Below, in pieces: positions 2,908 through 26,832 of a stretch of 35,463 nucleotides of DNA. Each line of letters begins with the position of its first letter. The stretch's first letter is position 1. Position numbers and translations under genes: made by a program. The notes under the pieces were generated by a model. The model saw only the letters and a program-made list of their open reading frames with translations, did not search any database and was not told where the DNA came from. Source of the stretch: Chloroflexota bacterium (GTDB lineage Bacteria > Chloroflexota > Dormibacteria > Dormibacterales > Dormibacteraceae); NCBI GenBank assembly GCA_005879985.1, contig VBIA01000153.1, positions 1-35,463 on the forward strand. Direction: 5' to 3'.

Positions 2908-3897
2908 ATGCCTGTGAGGGCGCTGCTGGCAATCGTTGTGCTGTGCGCATGCGCATGCACCAGCACCGTGCCATCGACCTCACCGAGCCCATCACCCGCC
3001 GCCAGCCCGACACCATCGCCAACCCCTTCGCCGGTCGCGACGCTTCCGTGCAAGATGCCGGCTACGGTCGGCATAGCCGGCGGTGGCTACATCGCCAAGC
3101 TCGGTTGGATCACGCTGCCAAGCGGCGCCATCACCGTCGACACGACCAATGAGATCGACGGCAGCAATGAGCCTGTCGGCATCATCTGGGCCACAAATCA
3201 CTCACCCCAGCGCTTCGGTGTTGGTGAGGGCACCGACTCGAATGCCGCCGGCGGCTGGCTGCCTGTCCCGCCTGAGCTGGTCGCGCCTGACGGCCTCCAC
3301 TACGCCTACCTGCACGCTGACGGGACCATTCGCGTCTCGAACCAGAACGGCCAGGAAGCGATCATCAAGGACCCGAACAAGCTGACCCCGCTGGCGTTCA
3401 CCGCGGCGGGAGTCGTGCTCACCAGCCAAACGGTCGACTCGAACGGCCTGTGGCTGCTCGACACGACAACGCAGACGATCGCACCGATCACGCCGGTCGC
3501 CGGCAACAACGACTGGCACGAGGTGGTGCACGGGACGGTATGGGGCGTGGACTCGCCGGGCGTCCTCGGCTACCCGGCGCCTACCAAGCTCCTCACGGTC
3601 AGCACCGTGCCCGGCTCGACGCCGACCGTTGCGTTCACCGCTCCCGGCGGCGACTCGATCGCGCTCATCGCCACCGACACGCAGGGTGGGGTGATGATCG
3701 ACCTCACGGGATCGGCGCCGGGAATCGAGTACCTGTCGTCAAGCGGCGCGACCTCACAGGCAGCGGCGCCGACCGGCACGGCGCTGCTGTCGGGCCGGCC
3801 CAGACGATCGACATCGTCCCCGGAGGGGACTGCACCTAGCCGGCACCAAAAGAAAAGGCCGGGCCCACATGAGCCCGGCCCTGGTTCAGCTATCTAG
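2908..3897 (+). CDS. Secreted lipoprotein with proline/serine linker, probable 3' frameshift
   Basis: The start MPVRALLAIVVLCACAC is a lipoprotein signal with Cys at the end of the hydrophobic core. It is followed by a linker of Ser-Pro/Thr-Pro repeats (about 20-45) and a domain of repeated beta-type segments (LHYAYLHADGTIRV, NGLWLLDTTTQ) like WD40/propeller surface proteins. As read, the frame runs to 3897, straight through the opposite-strand terminator, ending in a low-complexity basic tail. In the next frame the sequence from about 3798 reads AQTIDIVPGGDCT and stops at 3839, before the hairpin. One missing C in the GGGCCGG run near 3793-3800 would explain this. The true end is therefore probably 3839. 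Function unknown. Confidence 0.7.
   Translation: MPVRALLAIVVLCACACTSTVPSTSPSPSPAASPTPSPTPSPVATLPCKMPATVGIAGGGYIAKLGWITLPSGAITVDTTNEIDGSNEPVGIIWATNHSPQRFGVGEGTDSNAAGGWLPVPPELVAPDGLHYAYLHADGTIRVSNQNGQEAIIKDPNKLTPLAFTAAGVVLTSQTVDSNGLWLLDTTTQTIAPITPVAGNNDWHEVVHGTVWGVDSPGVLGYPAPTKLLTVSTVPGSTPTVAFTAPGGDSIALIATDTQGGVMIDLTGSAPGIEYLSSSGATSQAAAPTGTALLSGRPRRSTSSPEGTAPSRHQKKRPGPHEPGPGSAI
3848..3880 (-). terminator. Rho-independent terminator of the 3901-4215 gene
   Basis: On the minus strand, GGCCGGGC and GCCCGGCC (arms 3857-3864 and 3873-3880, eight perfect pairs, 8-nt loop) are followed by TTTTCTTTT (3856-3848). The hairpin lies 20 bases past the stop codon of the minus-strand gene. On the plus strand there is no T run, so it does not fit the lipoprotein gene. 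Confidence 0.88.
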
Positions 3898-6642: not shown

Positions 6643-7197
6643 TCAATGCATCACTCGGTACTTCAGAGTCGTCCGCTCGCCGGCGCGCGAAACTTCGATC
6701 GTCTCGAGACGCAAGTGCTCGAGACCCTCACCACCCCAGAACCTCAAGCCTGAGCCGAGCAGCACCGGCATCACATCGACATGCAGCTCGTCGACGAGAT
6801 TCGCCGCGAAAAGCTGCCGCGCGAGGTCGGCGCCGCCGACGACCATCACATTGCGATCCTTCGCCGCGGCTTTAGCCAGTCGCACGGCCGGCTCGACTCC
6901 ATCGGTCACGAATGTGAAGGAGATGCGTCCGTTCTCCTTCGGATGATGAGCCGGCGGGCGATGGGTGACGATGAAGATGGGCACCTGGAACTCGTAGTTG
7001 TCGGCCAACGTGTCGGGGTCGCCCATCTGGAATGTGTGGCGGCCCATCAATACGGCGCCCGTGTCCGCGATTAGGTCTTTCATGTACGGCTTGTCCTGCA
7101 GGTCCGCCAGATCCGGATACAGACGCTCGACGCCGCCCTGTTCGTCGGCTACGAAACCGTCGATGGACGTCGTGTAGCCGACTACTACCTTGGTCAG
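6643..7197 (-). CDS. Dihydrofolate reductase-fold / RibD C-terminal domain protein
   Basis: The frame encodes about 184 residues starting (L/M)TKVVVGYTTSIDGFVA, the typical opening of the small DHFR/RibD-C family, then VLMGRHTFQMG, NVMVVGGADLARQLF and LVDELHVDVMPVLLGSG, all family hallmarks. These proteins bind NADPH; most are uncharacterised reductases. No ATG, GTG or TTG is available at the correct place. The frame is open from an in-frame stop at 7258-7260, and the best candidate is CTG at 7197, which overlaps the stop of the upstream gene as CTGA. A start at ATG 7083 would delete the first strand and the substrate loop. Expression is therefore probably by coupling to the zinc-ribbon gene upstream. 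Confidence 0.82.
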   Translation of the reverse strand: MTKVVVGYTTSIDGFVADEQGGVERLYPDLADLQDKPYMKDLIADTGAVLMGRHTFQMGDPDTLADNYEFQVPIFIVTHRPPAHHPKENGRISFTFVTDGVEPAVRLAKAAAKDRNVMVVGGADLARQLFAANLVDELHVDVMPVLLGSGLRFWGGEGLEHLRLETIEVSRAGERTTLKYRVMH

Positions 7198-18345: not shown

Positions 18346-19804
18346 CTAGCCGGCGCTGGACGCGCTCTTGCCGATGTCGTTGATGTTCTCCTCGAACATG
18401 CCGCGCAGCTTGGCCGCCTGCCGGTCGTACTCCTCGGGGTCAGGCCAGCTGTCGCGCGTGTCGAGCACCTCGCGCGGCACGCCGGGGACGCGGTTGGGGA
18501 TGTGCAGCCCGAAGATCGGGTCGACGTGAGTGTTCACGCCGCGCAGGTCCCCGTTGAGGACTGCGCGCACGATCGCGCGCGTGTGCGCGATCGACATCCT
18601 CTCGCCCACGCCGTATGGCCCGCCGACCCAGCCCGTGTTCAGCATCCAGACGTCAACGTGGTGCCGCTTCACGCGCTCGATGAGCATGTCCGCGTAGCGC
18701 TCGGGCGGCAGCACCAGGAAGGGGGCAGCGAAGCAGGTGCTGAAGATGGGCTCCGGCTCGGTCACCCCGCGCTCCGTGCCCGCGACCTTGGCCGTGTAGC
18801 CGGAAAGGAAGTAGTGGCGCATCTGGTCGTCGTCCAGCCGTGCGACCGGCGGCATGACCCCGTACGCGTCAGCGGACAGGAACAACACGTTGTGGGGGTG
18901 GCTCCCCATCCCATTGGGGATGGCGTTCGGGATCAGGTCGACCGGGTACGCCGCACGCGTGTTCTCGGTCTTCTCGTCCGAGTCGTAGTCCGGCACTCGC
19001 GTGCGCGGGTCGAACACCACGTTCTCGAGGATCGTCCCGAAGCTTTCGGTGGCCGCGTAGATCTCCGGCTCCGAGTCCTTGCGGATGCGAATCGTCTTCG
19101 CGTAGCACCCGCCCTCGAAGTTGAAGACCCCGCGGTCGGACCAGCCGTGCTCATCGTCCCCGATCAGGCGGCGCGAAGGATCCGCTGACAGCGTCGTCTT
19201 GCCGGTGCCGCTCAAACCGAAGAACAGCGCCACGTCGGAGCCGTCCACATCGGTGTTGGCCGAGCAGTGCATCGGGAAGACGCTCTGCGCGGGGAGCAGA
19301 TAGTTCAGGGCCGTGAAGATCGACTTCTTGATCTCGCCGGCGTAACCCGTGCCGCCGATGAGCACGATCCGCCGTCCGAGATTGACCAGGATGAACGTCT
19401 CGCTGTGCGTCCCGTCGCGCGCAGGGTCGGCCTTGAACGAGGGCAGCGAGATGACGGTGAAGTCGGGTTCGAAGCCCATGAGCTCGTCGGCGTTCGGCCG
19501 GATGAACAGATTGCGCGCGAACAGGCTGTGCCACGCCATCTCCGACCTGCATTCGGCGCAGCAGGGCGTCGAAGCGATCGCTGCCGATGGGCTGGTTGCC
19601 CGGGTGCCACCAGATCGCGTCCTGGCTCGATGGCTCTTTGACGAAGAACTTGTCCTTGGGCGACCGGCCTGTATGCCTGCCGGTCTCGGCGGTCAGCGCA
19701 CCCGTCGAAACGACGGCCGCCTCGTCGCGGCGGATGGCGTGCTCGTAAAGCGCGGCCGGGCTGAGGTTGCGTCGCTCGGTGGCGACTTTGTCAGTGATGG
19801 CCAT
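18346..19804 (-). pseudogene. pckA: ATP-type phosphoenolpyruvate carboxykinase, internal deletion and frameshift
   Basis: Two frames encode one PEP carboxykinase. From ATG 19804, about 87 residues give the N-terminus with the substrate-binding HTGRSPKDK (44-52). The rest is read in another frame from about 19542 ([16 protein letters not shown]) to 18346, with [11 protein letters not shown], the P-loop [42 protein letters not shown] and [11 protein letters not shown]. Compared with E. coli PckA, about 33 residues around GKRLFVVDAF are missing at the junction (19540-19546), and the frame changes there. Catalytic residues are otherwise complete. The intact enzyme converts oxaloacetate to PEP in gluconeogenesis. 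As read it cannot produce a full protein. It heads the SLOG-moaD-moaE operon. Confidence 0.88.
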
Positions 19805-19815
19805 GCTTCGTGTTC

Positions 19816-19821
19816 AGGATA
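19816..19821 (-). promoter_or_regulatory. -10 box TATCCT upstream of pckA
   Basis: TATCCT on the minus strand lies 11 bases before the ATG at 19804, giving a leader of only about four bases. It would drive pckA, the SLOG gene, moaD and moaE. Confidence 0.4.
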
Positions 19822-19880
19822 AGCAATCAGTTAGTCACCACCGTACCGCGCCTGGCGCGCGAACGGGCCCGGAGCCAGGC

Positions 19881-21866
19881 TTACGCGATACGGGCCCGGC
19901 GGGAGCTGGCCCGGCGGCGCTGCCGGCCGCTTACGTAGTCGACCAGGATGTACTCGCCAAGGCGCTCCGGCGAAACGAAAAACGCCCTGCCCTTGTTGAT
20001 GCGGGTCATCTGGTTGATGAACTCGGTCAGGTACGGCCCGCGCTCGAGCATGAACGTGTTGATCACGATGCGGTCGCGCGTGCAGCGCCGCACCTCGCGC
20101 AGCGTCTGCTGGATGGTCTTGTAAGTGGGCGGGTAGGCGAAGTAGGCGCGCCCGTTGTCTTCGAGGTGCGCGGTCGGCTCGCCGTCCGTGATCATGATGA
20201 TCTGCCGGTTGCCGCGGTGCTTCGCCAGCAGCGACCGCGCGAGCTGGAAGCCGTGCTGCATGTTGGTGCCGTACACGTAGTCGTTGAGCGCGAGCTGCGG
20301 CAGCGTATGCGGCTTGAGCTCGACGGCGTAGTTCGAGAAGCCGACGACGTACAGGGAGTCGCGCGGGTACTGGCTGCGGATGAGCGAATCGAGCGCGATC
20401 GCCACCTTCTTGGCGGCCAGGAAGCAGCCACGCAAAAACATCGAGCGGCTCATGTCGATCATCAGCACCGTCGACGCCTGTGTCACGTGCTCGGTGCGGT
20501 GAACCACGAAGTCCTTGGCCCCGATTCGCACCGGCACCTGCGGACCCTCGCGTACGAGCGAGTTGAACAGCGTCTCTTTCAGGTCCATCAAGAACGGGTC
20601 GCCGTATTCGTATTCCTTCAGCTCGTCTGACGCGTCGTTGCCGATGCCGCCGCGGTACAGCTGGTGCTGGCCCATCCGCGTCTTCTTGAGCTGGTCGAAG
20701 ATGTCCTTCAGCGCCGACTGGCCGATGCGTCGCATGCCGCGCGGCGTTAGCTCCAGACGGCGACCGCGGCGCTCCACGTAGCCCGCCTTCTCGAGCACGT
20801 CGGTCACGCGGCGCAGCTGGTCCAAAGCCTGACGCGCCTCCGGGCCCAGCAGCTCCTGCGCCAGCGAGCGGTCGACGTCGTCAGGGCGGAAGCTGCCGCG
20901 CTCGAGCTGCGACTCAAGCCGGTCCATCTGCTGCAGGCGCTCCATAAGCCCCATCGCCTCGCCCATGCTCAGCGGGTCCTCGCCGAAGAACGGGTAGCGC
21001 TCTGTCAGCTCCGAGGGCGGCATCATCGCCTGCATGAAGCCCGACAGGCGCGCCAGCTCCAGGCGCAGCGAGTCGTCCTGCAGGAGCGCGTCCATCATCT
21101 GACGCAGCTCCTCGCGGGCCTCGGGGCTCAGGCTTTGCAGCAGCGACTGCATCTGCGCCATCTGCCGCTGCAGATGCTCGAGCAGCTCGTCGAGGCTGTT
21201 GATGCCGGACGGGAACATGTCCCCGAACTTCTCCATGAAGCCGTTGAAGTCAGGCGTCCGGCCTTCCATGCGGTCCTCGAGCATCTTGTTCAGCGAGCGC
21301 ACCATGTCGCGAACGCGCGACAGGTCCTGGCCCTGCATCTGCTGGATCGAGCCCTTCAGGCCCTGGAACATCTGGTCGAGCATCTGCTTCTGAAGCCGCT
21401 GCATCAGCGCGTCGAACTTCTGACGCGCCTCGTCATCGACGAACTCGTAGTCGCGCAGCGCCTTCACGCGTCCGCCGAGCTCGTCAGGCATGCGGTCGAG
21501 CTGGTCGTTGCGCTGCTTGGCGATGCGCTCCATGAGCTTGCGCGCCTCGGGCGTCGCGGCCTCGTTCTGCCGCCGCTCGATGCCCTCGCGCTCGGTGTCG
21601 ATGACGTCCTGCACCTCCTGGCGCAGCTGGTCGACGGTGGAGTCGAGGTTGTAGCGGCCGAGCTCGCGCTCGCGCGCCTCACGCAGCTGCTTGAGGAGCT
21701 GCTCCAGGCCCTGCATGTTGGGCGATCCCCATCGGAGCAGGCGCTGCAGCGCCGCATTGAGGTCGCCGTAGTTCATCAGGTCGTCGGACAGCGAGTCCAG
21801 CAGGTCCCCGGCGTCCAGATCGTCCACGCGCTGGGAGCCGTCCCAGCGCGAGTACCGAAACTTCAC
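19881..21866 (-). CDS. VWA-domain protein with long helical N-terminal region
   Basis: The 661-residue protein starts MKFRYSRWDG and has a long, Gln/Glu/Leu-rich helical part (about 30-400) with likely coiled coils (LEQLLKQLREARERELG, QRQMAQMQSLLQSL). A von Willebrand A domain (about 460-640) follows, with the MIDAS motif DMSRSM at 471-476, then YVVGFS, NMQHGFQLARSLL and MITDGEPTAH. It resembles the Rv0959-type VWA proteins of actinobacteria, which pair with a MoxR/Mg-chelatase-type ATPase to remodel partner proteins. That ATPase is not in the window. The GTG start overlaps the amidase stop (GTGA at 21863-21866), so the two genes are translated together. The partner and function are unknown. 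Confidence 0.87.
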   Translation of the reverse strand: MKFRYSRWDGSQRVDDLDAGDLLDSLSDDLMNYGDLNAALQRLLRWGSPNMQGLEQLLKQLREARERELGRYNLDSTVDQLRQEVQDVIDTEREGIERRQNEAATPEARKLMERIAKQRNDQLDRMPDELGGRVKALRDYEFVDDEARQKFDALMQRLQKQMLDQMFQGLKGSIQQMQGQDLSRVRDMVRSLNKMLEDRMEGRTPDFNGFMEKFGDMFPSGINSLDELLEHLQRQMAQMQSLLQSLSPEAREELRQMMDALLQDDSLRLELARLSGFMQAMMPPSELTERYPFFGEDPLSMGEAMGLMERLQQMDRLESQLERGSFRPDDVDRSLAQELLGPEARQALDQLRRVTDVLEKAGYVERRGRRLELTPRGMRRIGQSALKDIFDQLKKTRMGQHQLYRGGIGNDASDELKEYEYGDPFLMDLKETLFNSLVREGPQVPVRIGAKDFVVHRTEHVTQASTVLMIDMSRSMFLRGCFLAAKKVAIALDSLIRSQYPRDSLYVVGFSNYAVELKPHTLPQLALNDYVYGTNMQHGFQLARSLLAKHRGNRQIIMITDGEPTAHLEDNGRAYFAYPPTYKTIQQTLREVRRCTRDRIVINTFMLERGPYLTEFINQMTRINKGRAFFVSPERLGEYILVDYVSGRQRRRASSRRARIA

Positions 21867-23155
21867 GCTCCCAAGCTAGCAGGCTGCCAGCCGCCCAACT
21901 GCTTTTCGATCGACCCGGCCGCGGCTAGCGCCGCGTAGTCGCGCCAGTTGCGGGCCACGACCTGCACGCCGATGGGCAGGCCCTCGGGCGAGGTGCCCGC
22001 GCGGACGACGACCGCGGGGTTGCCGCCGAGGCTGTAGGGGATGGTGTAGCTGTACTGATCGACAGTTGGGATCTTGGCCCGGTAGAGCGGCGCCGCGTCC
22101 GCCGCCACCGGCGTGAGGATGAGGTCGAAGCTGGCCATGAACTCGAGCAGCCGGGTGCGGAACCCGTCCCACTTGACGATGAGCCGTTCGTGCGTCATGC
22201 GCACCTGGCCCCAATAACCGAGCGTCACCTCGCGTGCTTCGTCGAGGCCCGGCGGCCTCGCTTCGGTGCATCTGCAGCCCGCCTGGGATAGCGCATGCAC
22301 GGCCGCCTGCAGCGCCGCGACCGTAGGCTTGGTCGACTGGACCATGCCGTCCTCGGCGTACCACGCCACTTTCAGGCCGTGCAGCTTGGGCCGGCGGCGC
22401 CGCGGGGGCATGGGGATCACCGCCGAGTCGACGCCGTCCGGTCCCACCAGGAGCGGCAGCACGAGGGCCAGGTCGTTCACAAACCGGGCCATCGGACCCA
22501 CCTGGCTGCGAGGATCCATCAGCCCGCCCGCAAGCCCGTAAGCGCCAGTGCTGGGCACCCAGCCGGTGGTCGGCTTCAGCGCCGCGATCCCGCAGTAATG
22601 GGCCGGCACCCGGATGCTGCCACCGGAGTCGCTGCCGATGCCCAGCGGCGAGCCCGCGGCGGCGATGATGGCGGCCTCGCCACTGCTGCTCGCGCCCGGT
22701 GACCGGGTCAGGTCATAGGGGTTGCGCGTGCCGCCATGGAGCGGGTTCCAGCTCTGGCCGCCGGAACCGCCCGGCGGGCAGTTCGACTTGCCCAGCAGGA
22801 TCGCGCCGGCCGAGCGCATGCGCGCGATCACGGTCGCGTCTTTGTCCGGGACGTTGTCCTTCAGCTTGCGCAGGCCGGCGGTCGTGGCCACGCCGGCGGT
22901 GTCGAAGATGTCCTTGGCCGTGAACGGGACACCGTGCAGCGGCGGCGGCTCGAAGCCGCGCTTGGCGAGGTGGCGGTCGGCCGCCTTGGGCTGGCGGATG
23001 GCGCTCTCGTTGGTGACCCAGAAAATCGCGTTGAGGCGCGGGTTGACGGCGCCGATGTGCTCGAGGTGCGCCCGGACGACCTCCTCCGACGACAAGCGGC
23101 CGTCCCGGATGGCGCGCGCCAGCCAGCTGGCCGGGGCGCCTACCGGGTCGCGCAT
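21863..23155 (-). CDS. Amidase signature family hydrolase
   Basis: The 430-residue protein carries the full Ser-Ser-Lys triad of the amidase signature family: Lys81 (VPFTAKDIFDTAG), Ser156 (RSPGASSSGEAA) and Ser180 (GSDSGGSIRVPAHYCG). The N-terminus (ISSEEVV-like LSSEEVVRAHLEHIGAVNPRLNA in two pieces) is typical. It hydrolyses an amide bond; GatA of the tRNA amidotransferase is in the same family, but there is no gatB/gatC here and the sequence reads like a stand-alone amidase. Substrate unknown. The ATG at 23155 is followed upstream by a symmetric triple palindrome (23188-23240), so expression is probably controlled by a ligand-responsive repressor. It overlaps the VWA gene downstream. Confidence 0.88.
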   Translation of the reverse strand: MRDPVGAPASWLARAIRDGRLSSEEVVRAHLEHIGAVNPRLNAIFWVTNESAIRQPKAADRHLAKRGFEPPPLHGVPFTAKDIFDTAGVATTAGLRKLKDNVPDKDATVIARMRSAGAILLGKSNCPPGGSGGQSWNPLHGGTRNPYDLTRSPGASSSGEAAIIAAAGSPLGIGSDSGGSIRVPAHYCGIAALKPTTGWVPSTGAYGLAGGLMDPRSQVGPMARFVNDLALVLPLLVGPDGVDSAVIPMPPRRRRPKLHGLKVAWYAEDGMVQSTKPTVAALQAAVHALSQAGCRCTEARPPGLDEAREVTLGYWGQVRMTHERLIVKWDGFRTRLLEFMASFDLILTPVAADAAPLYRAKIPTVDQYSYTIPYSLGGNPAVVVRAGTSPEGLPIGVQVVARNWRDYAALAAAGSIEKQLGGWQPASLGA

Positions 23156-23187
23156 GTCGGGCTAGATGATGACGGCCGAAACTGAGC

Positions 23188-23240
23188 TTTGTATACAAAC
23201 GCACGTTATTCCGCCGGAATCCGCGCCCTTTGTATACAAA
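23188..23240. promoter_or_regulatory. Symmetric triple palindromic operator
   Basis: TTTGTATACAAA occurs at 23188-23199 and again at 23229-23240, each a perfect 12-bp palindrome. Exactly midway, 8 bp from each, is a third perfect palindrome, ATTCCGCCGGAAT (23208-23220). The centres are 20.5 bp apart, close to two helical turns. The cluster lies 33 bases before the amidase start and 15 past the UPF0173 stop. A GntR-type or similar dimeric repressor is a reasonable guess from the TTGTATACAA core. Confidence 0.78.
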
Positions 23241-23254
23241 CGGGCTCGCGTTGA

Positions 23255-23965
23255 CTAAACCGTGTCTCCCGGCTTGATGTCGAGGACGTGGACATTGTTC
23301 CCGACCAGCTCCTGCAGCTGGCTGGGCCGGCCGTGGAGGGCCGGGAACGTGCCGAAGTGCATCGGCACGACCGTCTTCACGCCCAAGAGCTTGACCGCCT
23401 TGGCCGCGCGCTCCGGACCCATCGTGTAGAAGTCGCCGATGGGCAGAAACGCGGCGTCGAGCTTGTTGAGCTCGGCGATGATGGCCATGTCGCCGAACAC
23501 GTCGGTGTCGCCTGCGAAATAGATGGTGTAGCCGTTCTCGAACTCGATCACGAGCCCGCACGCATCGCCGCCGTACACGACCCGGTCGCCGTCGGTGATA
23601 CCGCACGAATGCTCCGCGTGCACGAGCGTGACCTTGATCCCGTCCACGTCGACCGTGCCGCCGGTGCTGGCGCCGATCAACGAGTCGCGGTCGATGCCCT
23701 TCGAGGCCATCCACTCGCTGATCTCGTAATTGCTGACGATCTTCGGCTTCGTCGCCCTGGCGATCTCCAGCGCGTCGCCGATGTGGTCAAAGTGACCGTG
23801 CGTGATGAGCATCAGGTCGCATTTGTCGACCGTCTTCATGTTGGCCGGCGCGCCCGGGTTGTTCATGACCCAGGGGTCGATGAGAACCTCTTTGCCCTTG
23901 GCGCTCCGGGACTTCCACGTCCCGTGCCCGACCCACGTGAAGCTGACTTGAGAGTTCAGCGCCAT
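23255..23965 (-). CDS. UPF0173 metal-dependent hydrolase (MBL fold)
   Basis: The 236-residue protein is a complete UPF0173/YtkL-type metallo-beta-lactamase-fold protein: FTWVGHGTW, ITHGHFDH (His56, His58, Asp60, His61), AEHSCG, IYFAGDTDVFGDM and VVPMHFGTFP. All expected metal ligands are present, in contrast to the MBL-like gene at 9440. The biochemical substrate of the family is not established. The ATG at 23965 is preceded by a GGAGTCGGGGG stretch and lies 18 bases after the GT87 stop, so the two share a transcript. Its stop is followed by the palindromic operator region of the amidase gene. Confidence 0.9.
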   Translation of the reverse strand: MALNSQVSFTWVGHGTWKSRSAKGKEVLIDPWVMNNPGAPANMKTVDKCDLMLITHGHFDHIGDALEIARATKPKIVSNYEISEWMASKGIDRDSLIGASTGGTVDVDGIKVTLVHAEHSCGITDGDRVVYGGDACGLVIEFENGYTIYFAGDTDVFGDMAIIAELNKLDAAFLPIGDFYTMGPERAAKAVKLLGVKTVVPMHFGTFPALHGRPSQLQELVGNNVHVLDIKPGDTV

Positions 23966-23983
23966 CCCCCGACTCCTATCTGA

Positions 23984-25204
23984 TCAAGCCGCTCGGAAAA
24001 GTCGATTTTCCCACACGCCCAGAACGAAGATCGCGATCGCCGCGAGCGTCCAGAGGTTCGGAAACAGCAGGTCGCACGGCGGCCGGTAGAACCCGAGCAG
24101 GAACACGCCTATAAGCACCAGCGTCGTACCGCGCTGCTGCTCGATCGCGCGCACCGCGACCAGCAGAAGGAGCGGGAGCAGCGGCAGCCACTGGTACGGC
24201 CACACCTCGTTGGGGATCAGCGCGCCGAGCGAGAAGCCGAGCGCCATGCCATAAGGCGCGTTCCACCCGCTGCGCCACGTGGCCCACACGGCCGCCGCCG
24301 CGAACGCGGCCGAGCTCGCGTAGGACAGCACCGCTGCGAGGCCCGGCATGTGCCACGGCAGCGACACGCTGACGACACCTCCGTTCGAGTTCGGCAGGAG
24401 GTATGGCTCGCCGCCGACCACTCGATCGAACAGCGTGCGCACCGAGTCGTATCCGCAGTCGGCGTTGTGTGAGCCGAGCGAGGCGAGCAGGACGTGCTGG
24501 TAATAAAAGACAGCACCGCCGAATCCCAGCGGGATGAAGCTGACGGCCGTCACCACGATAAGGGCGGCGCCGAGCGCGACGGCGTAGCCGATCCGGTGCG
24601 CCGGCCGCGGGCCGATGATCATGGCCGCGGGGTAGTACTTCAGCGCCGAGGCAAGGCCGCCGAGCGCGCCGGCGATCCAGGGCCGTCGCGATTCGAACCA
24701 GATCGATGCCATCGCGCCGAGCAGCGCGACGCCGCCGCGCTGGCCGGCGCTGATGTCGGCAAACACGGGCGGGAAGTACATGGCGACGACCCAGAAGACA
24801 GGTGGGGCGAGATTGCTCGGTTTGCATGCGATGCGATAGAGGATGAAAAGACCGGCCAGCAGCGCCGCCGCGTCGATGGCGGTCCAGAGCTGCACTCCTA
24901 CGTCTTTGGGCAGCAGCGCGACCGGGATCGCCAGCAGCGCTACCGGTGGCGGGCTGACGAACGCGTAGATCGTGCCAGGCGGGGCGATGACGTGGCTTAC
25001 CGCGAGGTACTGAGCTGCTGCGTCGTACATGTGCGCCGGATTGGTCAGGTAGGCGCGCGCGCCTTCCCACATGCCCTCGGCATCGGGGCGTTGGTTGTTG
25101 ATGATCGAGAGCACCGCGACCCGCAGCGCGAATACCGCGGCCAGCGCCCAGTAGAAAGCGGGCCGCGAGAACAGATCGGCGGCCGCCAACCGGAACCTTT
25201 GCAC
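23984..25204 (-). CDS. GT87-like membrane glycosyltransferase
   Basis: The 406-residue protein has about ten to twelve hydrophobic segments. Near the N-terminus a loop with Asp-Ala-Glu (NNQRPDAEGMWEGARAYL) is followed by HMYDAAAQYLAVSH, and later come FADISAGQRGGVALLG and ASALKYYPAAMIIGP. This is the DUF2029/GT87 layout, an inverting, polyprenyl-phosphate-sugar-using transferase acting outside the membrane. It shares the arrangement, but little close identity, with the gene at 11335. The GTG at 25204 is preceded at eight bases by TATGGT, a box shared with the divergent carboxylase gene. The downstream UPF0173 gene is in the same transcript. The sugar and acceptor are unknown. Confidence 0.8.
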   Translation of the reverse strand: MQRFRLAAADLFSRPAFYWALAAVFALRVAVLSIINNQRPDAEGMWEGARAYLTNPAHMYDAAAQYLAVSHVIAPPGTIYAFVSPPPVALLAIPVALLPKDVGVQLWTAIDAAALLAGLFILYRIACKPSNLAPPVFWVVAMYFPPVFADISAGQRGGVALLGAMASIWFESRRPWIAGALGGLASALKYYPAAMIIGPRPAHRIGYAVALGAALIVVTAVSFIPLGFGGAVFYYQHVLLASLGSHNADCGYDSVRTLFDRVVGGEPYLLPNSNGGVVSVSLPWHMPGLAAVLSYASSAAFAAAAVWATWRSGWNAPYGMALGFSLGALIPNEVWPYQWLPLLPLLLLVAVRAIEQQRGTTLVLIGVFLLGFYRPPCDLLFPNLWTLAAIAIFVLGVWENRLFRAA

Positions 25205-25211
25205 GCGCGCC

Positions 25212-25218
25212 TACCATA
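25212..25218. promoter_or_regulatory. Shared bidirectional -10 element TACCATA
   Basis: TACCAT (25212-25217, plus) lies nine bases before the ATG at 25227; TATGGT (25218-25213, minus) lies eight bases before the GTG at 25204. The two boxes overlap by five base pairs within one self-complementary TANNNTA, as at 7772-7778. Confidence 0.55.
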
Positions 25219-25226
25219 TTCGAGTT

Positions 25227-26832
25227 ATGGCAGCCAGGAAGCCGAAATCACTCACCCCCGTGCGCCGGACGCTTCCCGACCTGCAAGGCGTCGAAGCGCC
25301 CGAGCGCGCGACGGCCAGCGTCTCGGAACAGAAGATCAATCAGTACCGCAAGCGGCGCTACCAGGCGCTGCACGCGGAGACCGAGGCCGCCAACAAGCGG
25401 CGCGCCGCCGGCAGGGCAACCGCGCGCGAGCGCGTCGAGATGCTCGTCGACGACGGCTCGTTCGTCGAGCTCGACGTGTTCGCCACTCATCGCTCGCACG
25501 GACGGTGTGGTCGCCGGGTTCGGCGACATCGACGGCCGCGCGGTCGCGGTATATGCGTATGACGCGACGGTCTTCGGTGGCTCGTTGGGCGAGGTCACCG
25601 CCGAGAAGATCGTCAAGGTCCAGGAGCTCGCGCTGCGCAACCGCGTGCCGATCATCGGCATCAACGATTCAGGTGGCGCGCGCATCCAGGAAGGCGTGGT
25701 CGCGCTGGCGGGCTACGCGGACATCTTCTACCGCAACGTTCGCTCGTCCGGCGTGATCCCGCAGATCAGTATCATCGCGGGCCCGTGCACCGGCGGCGCG
25801 GTCTACTCGCCGGCGATCACCGACTTCATCTTCATCGTCGCGGGACAGGGCTACATGTTCATCACTGGACCCGAGGTGATCCGCGTGGTCACCGGTGAGG
25901 CGGTGTCATTCGACGAGCTCGGCGGCGGCGACGTGCACAACGCCACGTCAGGCGTGGCGCACTTCCTGCCGCGTTCGGAGGATGAATGCGCCGCGGGCGT
26001 GCGGCGCCTGCTGTCCTACCTGCCGTCGAGCAACAACGAGCGTCCGCCCTTCGTCCCCACCACCGACGACCGCGAGCGCGCGGACCCAGAGCTCCAGACC
26101 ATCGTGCCCGAGGCGCCGAACAAGCCGTACGACATGCGCGAGCTGGTGGCCCGCGTCCTCGACAACCGCGAGTTCTTCGAGGTCCAGCCCTTCTTCGCCA
26201 AGAACATCGTGGTCGGCCTGGGCCGGCTCGGCGGCCACGTCGTGGGTATCGTCGGCAACCAGCCGAAGCACCTGGCGGGCGCGATCGACATCAATGCGTC
26301 GGTGAAGGCGGCGCGCTTCATCCGCTTCTGCGACGCCTTCGGGATCCCGATCATCTCCTTCGTCGACGTGCCGGGCTACTTGCCGGGCCGCGACCAGGAG
26401 CACGGCGGGATCATCCGTCACGGGGCGAAGCTGCTCTACGCGTACGCGGAGGCGACCGTGCCGAAGCTGACCGTCATCACGCGCAAGGACTACGGCGGCG
26501 CGTACTGCGTCATGTCGCCCAAGCAGATGGGCGCGGACCTGAACCTCGCGTGGCCGACCGCGGAGATCGCAGTGATGGGACCGGACGCGGCGGTGAACAT
26601 CATCTACAAGCGTGAGCTCTCCAACGCCTCTGACCCGGCCGCGCGCCGGCAGCAGCTGGTGAACGAGTACACGACCCGCTTCGCCAACCCGTACGTGGCC
26701 GCGGAGCGGGGCTACATCGACGACGTCATCGAGCCTCGTGAGACCCGGCGCTCCCTGGTGCGGGGCCTCGAGCTTTGCCTGCGCAAGACGATCGAGCGCC
26801 CGCCGCGCAAGCACGGAAACATACCGCTGTAA
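25227..26832 (+). pseudogene. Acyl-CoA carboxylase carboxyltransferase (beta) subunit, small deletion and frameshift
   Basis: From ATG 25227, 91 residues give the N-terminal helix and RATARERVEMLVDDGSFVELDVF. At about 25500 the frame changes, and the rest runs to 26832: DGVVAGFGDIDGRAV, VFGGSLGEVTAEKIVKVQELA, INDSGGARIQEGV, GPCTGGAVYSPAITDF, FVDVPGYLPGRDQEHGGIIRHGAKLLYAYAEATVPK (in pieces) and KDYGGAYCVMSPKQMGAD. This is the biotin-dependent acetyl/propionyl-CoA carboxyltransferase. Relatives have about 12-16 residues between THRS and GDGVV that are absent here, so the frame is broken by a loss of a few tens of bases. The gene is otherwise complete and undecayed, and a sequencing or assembly fault is plausible. 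It is divergent from GT87 with a shared -10 element. Confidence 0.87.

Follow-up and report, generated by a model that had tools for sequence, protein, structure and literature searches.

The window, that is, the whole stretch of 35,463 nucleotides that was analysed, holds two identical palindromes that flank a third, different one in the gap between an amidase gene and a gene for a metallo-beta-lactamase-fold hydrolase (Table 1). The question raised by this locus is whether the arrangement serves to regulate the amidase, as the first-pass annotation proposed, or belongs to something larger. The geometry described in that annotation, namely the two identical outer palindromes, the 8-bp spacers, the inner palindrome and the common centre at 23214, was re-found in full in the sequence. 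Within the window, the outer sequence matched exactly twice, where shuffled sequences gave an expectation of 0.02, and no further match was obtained even when 1–2 mismatches were allowed. A search of 19500–26000 with the Rfam covariance models returned no match up to E = 1.

Table 1. Location of the palindromic element and the adjacent genes in the window.
Feature	Position	Strand	Remarks
Left palindrome, module 1 (TTTG-TATA-CAAA), TTTGTATACAAA	23188..23199	.	Exact match; core TGTATACA in all the aligned halves
Right palindrome, module 2, same sequence as left (TTTGTATACAAA)	23229..23240	.	Centre-to-centre distance 41 bp
29-bp spacer, with arms rich in G+C (CGCRS), an A/T block ~14 bp inward of each palindrome and a centre rich in G+C	23200..23228	.	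Column counts
Inner 13-bp palindrome ATTCCGCCGGAAT	23208..23220	.	Private to the window copy, judged coincidental
Probable whole unit, ~82 bp (2 × 41) including outer arms	23173..23255	.	Edges deduced from the GCGC-type copies and from the sizes of indels
Metallo-beta-lactamase-fold hydrolase gene, 3' end facing the element	23255..23965	-	Stop codon and doublet 14 bp apart
Amidase gene	21863..23155	-	Start 32 bp beyond the element

The outer pair was found to be one copy of a repeat family. In the 2.85-Mb draft genome of a soil Chloroflexota bacterium of which the window is contig 185 (G000), 45 sites matching TGTATACA were identified, 44 of which were paired into 22 doublets at a centre distance of 41 or 42 bp, and a reversed control pattern gave 0 doublets, which places the outer pair beyond chance. 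The genomes used are draft MAGs with completeness values of 88%, 71% and 87%. The sister species (G001), the sole other species of the genus searched, carried 25 TATA-type doublets, while the 59 other relatives searched yielded one match, with a different spacing. Unpaired or one-sided decayed cores were absent from the sampled sequence and nearly absent from the genome; the near-miss TTGTATACAA singles in G000 were matches that had no partner. Matches in other phyla and in viral contigs were isolated, several of them being perfect long inverted repeats or a single phage locus, and were taken as unrelated. Lone perfect inverted repeats of ~20 bp ending in TGTATACA, seen in Clostridium (L092), a Bacillota MAG (L104) and a Muribaculaceae MAG (L109), were also judged unrelated.

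An alignment of 47 doublets showed a mirror-image layout, in which outer G+C is followed by TT-TGTATACA-AA, CGCG, an A/T block and a G+C centre. The core TGTATACA was present in 94 of the 94 halves, an invariance that is due to collection, as the doublets were gathered using the exact core. The spacer sequence varied from copy to copy. The spacer of one doublet on a 3.5-kb contig (L049, G000:C2) shares 91% identity with the L057 spacer (contig 39); this may be a strain-variant contig that was counted twice. Six complementary pairs about the centre were found in the window copy alone among the 47, and this number is about the level seen in half-swapped chimeras. In the conservation check proposed by the first-pass annotation, the sister species retained both outer palindromes and their spacing in its orthologous copy, but the inner palindrome is broken there and reads ATTCCGCCTGAAT. 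The inner palindrome is judged to be coincidental and no property of the element. Its lack of conservation leaves the central site that had been suggested for a dimer of dimers unsupported; the dimer of dimers itself stays plausible, since the outer palindromes are the conserved unit and have a fixed, helically phased spacing. The spacing of about two helical turns applies to the outer-to-inner distance; the outer centres, 41 bp apart, lie ~3.9 turns from each other.

Sibling core types are repeat families of the same architecture. Further cores, namely TTTG-TGCA-CAAA, TTTG-GCGC-CAAA, TTTG-GATC-CAAA and CGAGTGCCGGCACTCG, were found at a spacing equal to that of the TATA type. When identical palindromes within 120–150 bp were sought blindly in the fetched G000 and G001 DNA, almost solely spacings of 41 and 42 bp were returned, along with three extra cores (TTTGTGCACAAA, TTGGCGCCAA and GTGCCGGCAC). 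The pattern TTTGNNNNCAAA-N29/30-TTTGNNNNCAAA identified exact doublets in G000 (22), G001 (17) and G009 (16), with fewer in other genera; it also yielded the GATC core, and its reversed control gave 0. The doublet pattern occurred in 7 of 301 Chloroflexota genomes, five of them in this family, while the two elsewhere had single matches with unmatched cores. No doublet mixed the TATA, TGCA and GCGC families, and cores match within a doublet. With the spacing left free between 30 and 60 bp, 21 of the 22 CCGG-type doublets proved to be spaced at exactly 42 bp. Most carriers have CGAGTGCCGGCACTCG as the core of this type, and G007 often has CAAGTGCCGGCACTTG. The total for G000 is ~50 doublets, made up of 22 TATA, 11 CCGG, roughly 8 TGCA-like and 11 GCGC.

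Some GCGC-like copies were unusual in their setting. At L223 (~7076–7173), three GCGC-like palindromes ~42 bp apart may form a degenerate run, the sole hint of more than two modules. GCGC-like doublets also fell inside predicted reading frames, with uncertain gene starts, at 3636–3689 of L206 (G002:C46) and at 2312–2365 of L188 (G000:C232); the latter would read ...FGAK...FGAK..., which recalls in-gene palindromic elements. Two GCGC doublets 1.7 kb apart at L188 were considered as possible transposon ends and rejected, the genes called around them showing no obvious transposase. Two GATC doublets 0.8 kb apart at L200 were likewise considered as possible transposon ends.

Comparison of orthologous loci in the two sister species provided insight into the turnover of the element. 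At the cleanest indel (L079/L135), the flanks are near base-for-base equal and G001 has 71 extra bp, which consist of the doublet plus 8–10 bp per side and begin directly after a stop codon; no target-site duplication was visible there, and clean cases are few. The pairs L083/L134 and L074/L131 showed presence/absence of the same kind, and a difference of ~90 bp was observed at L085/L064. Six GCGC copies in G000 have the spacer and outer arms in common, which defines a unit of ~84 bp (2 × 42). Clean presence/absence at orthologous loci, together with these recent copies, therefore indicates that the elements spread; some of the absences could, in principle, be losses. At one empty site where the sister species holds a TATA doublet (L132, G000:C44), two copies of CCCTCTCCCCGTCTGGGGAGAGGG, another gene-end palindromic repeat, were seen. 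Based on these results, the feature is probably a single member of a dispersed family of miniature, non-autonomous mobile doublets of REPIN/BIME-like type, with modules of ~41–42 bp that would be read as double-stranded DNA by a putative dimeric protein. Against this reading, at three orthologous positions (L062/L121, L066/L125 and L077/L129) a TATA doublet in one species has a TGCA-like counterpart in the other. Such switches, in which the element may have been replaced or changed in place, are not explained by simple insertion.

The placement of the doublets was then compared with simulated random positions in intergenic gaps, the genes being called with a simple codon-usage caller. Within 40 bp of a gene 3' end lay 36 of 44 TATA (P = 3e-24), 15 of 17 TGCA-like (P = 9e-12) and 15 of 21 GCGC doublets (P = 2e-9), against a simulated fraction of 0.135, and CCGG doublets showed 3'-end placement as in the other types. 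About 40% of the doublets lay between convergent genes, only 1 of 40 TATA doublets lay between divergent genes against 29% expected, and the median distance past stop codons was 13 bp. This extreme closeness to 3' ends speaks for a first alternative, that the copies are host functional sites rather than mobile DNA: a host-maintained 3'-end element, such as a protein-bound bidirectional insulator, a roadblock terminator or a topoisomerase site, would guard compact neighbouring transcription units. Its dyad symmetry would fit convergent genes, the core is invariant, and one copy (L056) lies 44 bp past a 5S rRNA gene, beyond a separate hairpin. However, orthologous convergent pairs do without a copy, down to merely 8 bp between the stop codons at L135, there are only ~50 copies per genome, turnover is fast with recent near-identical copies, and REPs of other bacteria have an equivalent 3'-end bias (PMC3733652). 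We consider this explanation rather unlikely.

Conservation was highest in the core. Across 12 orthologous pairs, changes were found in 0 of 192 core positions, 34 of 352 spacer positions (9.7%) and 58 of 288 outer-arm positions, and the core differed from the spacer with P = 3e-7, a contrast that owes something to ascertainment, both partners having been gathered with the exact core. No decayed TATA core was encountered at the orthologous loci that were read. A second alternative holds that the paired state of an RNA or a single-stranded DNA matters, the palindromes being the two sides of one REPIN-like stem. The two palindromes are able to pair, stable folds are predicted for the doublets, and position 2 of the CCGG module covaries, driven by one genus. 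Non-palindromic centres in G009 and G002, oriented by the upstream gene, mostly kept G-U or Watson-Crick pairing, in 8 cases with 3 against, a possible strand bias of G-U versus A-C. On the other side, no covariation was detected in the TATA type between left and right arms, where positions flanking the core vary one side at a time, nor between the outer and inner arms within one module. Native halves of the TATA, TGCA and GCGC types folded no more stably than half-swapped chimeras; because chimeras joined from related copies in opposite orientation may in some cases be overly stable, the claim is limited to a lack of hairpin support. All four cores are self-palindromic, a property that a stem would not need. 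Given arms that do not covary, a conserved hairpin is unsupported, and the stem-loop explanation is improbable.

In the third alternative, the doublets would serve as operators for a transcription factor, of GntR/FCD type or another, that controls a regulon of ~22 genes. Tetrameric repressors usually have paired, phased sites, and TTGTATACAA resembles the operators of some GntR-type regulators, a resemblance that serves as a lead only. The doublets lie past stop codons and largely avoid divergent gene pairs, rather than sitting upstream of promoters, and this placement refutes a regulon as the general account. Furthermore, the genes next to the doublets are unrelated (Lon, a carbamoyltransferase, a peptidase M3 and 5S rRNA are among them), no match to a promoter consensus was found at the window copy, and copies are present or absent between sister species. 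The operator explanation is thus very improbable, and the window element is not an amidase operator, as the identical doublet type follows the stop codons of unrelated genes as well as a 5S rRNA gene. Intrinsic (Rho-independent) terminators, which would suit the dyad symmetry and the position past stop codons, deserve practically no credence, as no terminator match was found in 23000–23400, a T tract is missing (the 12 nt that follow contain 2.3 T on average) and the 5S copy comes after a separate hairpin.

The mobile doublet was also compared with known repeat systems. REPINs are doublets that act as the replicating unit and hold the core more strictly than the spacer (PMC3116915). The Chloroflexota doublets resemble REPINs and GTAG REPs in that the copied unit is an extragenic palindrome doublet of ~100 bp or less, present in tens of copies and several families per genome, with a core stricter than the spacer and a location near gene 3' ends. 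Unlike these, they occur almost without singletons and at an exact spacing of 41–42 bp, and their arms do not pair while the core is self-palindromic. No match to the RAYT/Y1 transposase (PF01797) was obtained in G000, G001, G009 or the other scanned carriers; RAYT is likely missing from the carriers, which falls short of proof because the genomes are incomplete draft MAGs. G012, of the same family, has eleven PF01797 matches and zero TTTGNNNNCAAA doublets, a pattern opposite to that of the carriers. In 94 flanks, the GTAG tag was counted 8 times and CTAC twice, and CGTC 11 times and GACG 9 times, with ~8 expected of each and no clear enrichment. With no RAYT-type gene, no clear GTAG or CGTC enrichment and no supported hairpin, the element is filed as REPIN-like and not as a REPIN; it resembles known REP/REPIN repeats without the usual transposase.

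The CGTC REPs described by Di Nocera and colleagues form dimers, are placed at 3' ends, often at <20 bp, between convergent and unidirectional gene pairs, and have no dedicated transposase (PMC3733652). The Chloroflexota doublets share their dimer form and 3'-end placement, but REPs are defined as stem-loops, which is unsupported here. BIMEs of enterobacteria are pairs of palindromic units past genes, to which host proteins, among them gyrase and IHF, bind at the DNA level. The doublets are likewise pairs of palindromic units past genes, but they are unrelated to BIMEs in sequence and uniform in spacing, and their binding by a protein is putative. Similar to MITEs, they are short and non-autonomous, with terminal repeats and presence/absence between relatives; in contrast to MITEs, their terminal repeats are palindromes with outer arms. 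At the cleanest of the few clear indels, no target-site duplication was visible. Unpaired TTTGGCGCCAAA ends, as of a parent insertion sequence, were not found in the sampled sequence except in a decayed doublet.

For the mobile doublet, symmetric binding of protein dimers on duplex DNA is suggested by the self-palindromic cores, which are alike in the two modules, and by the constant distance of about four turns. A homodimer would recognise each palindrome in its double-stranded form, and two such dimers, 41–42 bp (3.9–4.0 turns) apart, would sit on one face, as a tetramer or a synaptic complex. The dimeric protein, most simply an enzyme that spreads the element in trans, would keep the core exact. 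Copies may survive chiefly in the compact space past stop codons, where they would do the least harm. Literature searches turned up nothing corresponding to this sequence, or to such repeats in Chloroflexota. We put forward, tentatively and as a possibility we hold with more doubt than belief, a previously undescribed class of dispersed double-stranded DNA elements, in which self-palindromes (TTTG-NNNN-CAAA and relatives) are paired exactly four turns apart and come in several core specificities within one genome. Such elements would lie at the 3' ends of transcripts, with a putative non-RAYT DNA-binding or recombining protein, unique to one Chloroflexota family, acting on them. Were this so, the type changes at orthologous positions would reflect competing element families in the same slots.

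The standard example of tiny sequence populations inside bacterial genomes is provided by REP and REPIN repeats, which are linked to RAYT transposases and to hairpins. This case shows that a seeming operator beside one gene can belong to a genome-wide repeat family. The Chloroflexota doublets display REP/REPIN ecology, with a doublet unit, 3'-end placement, turnover and several families, in the absence of tags, a detectable RAYT or a conserved hairpin. Their exact helical spacing predicts the binding mode of the putative protein, and they make a second origin of such sequence populations open to test.
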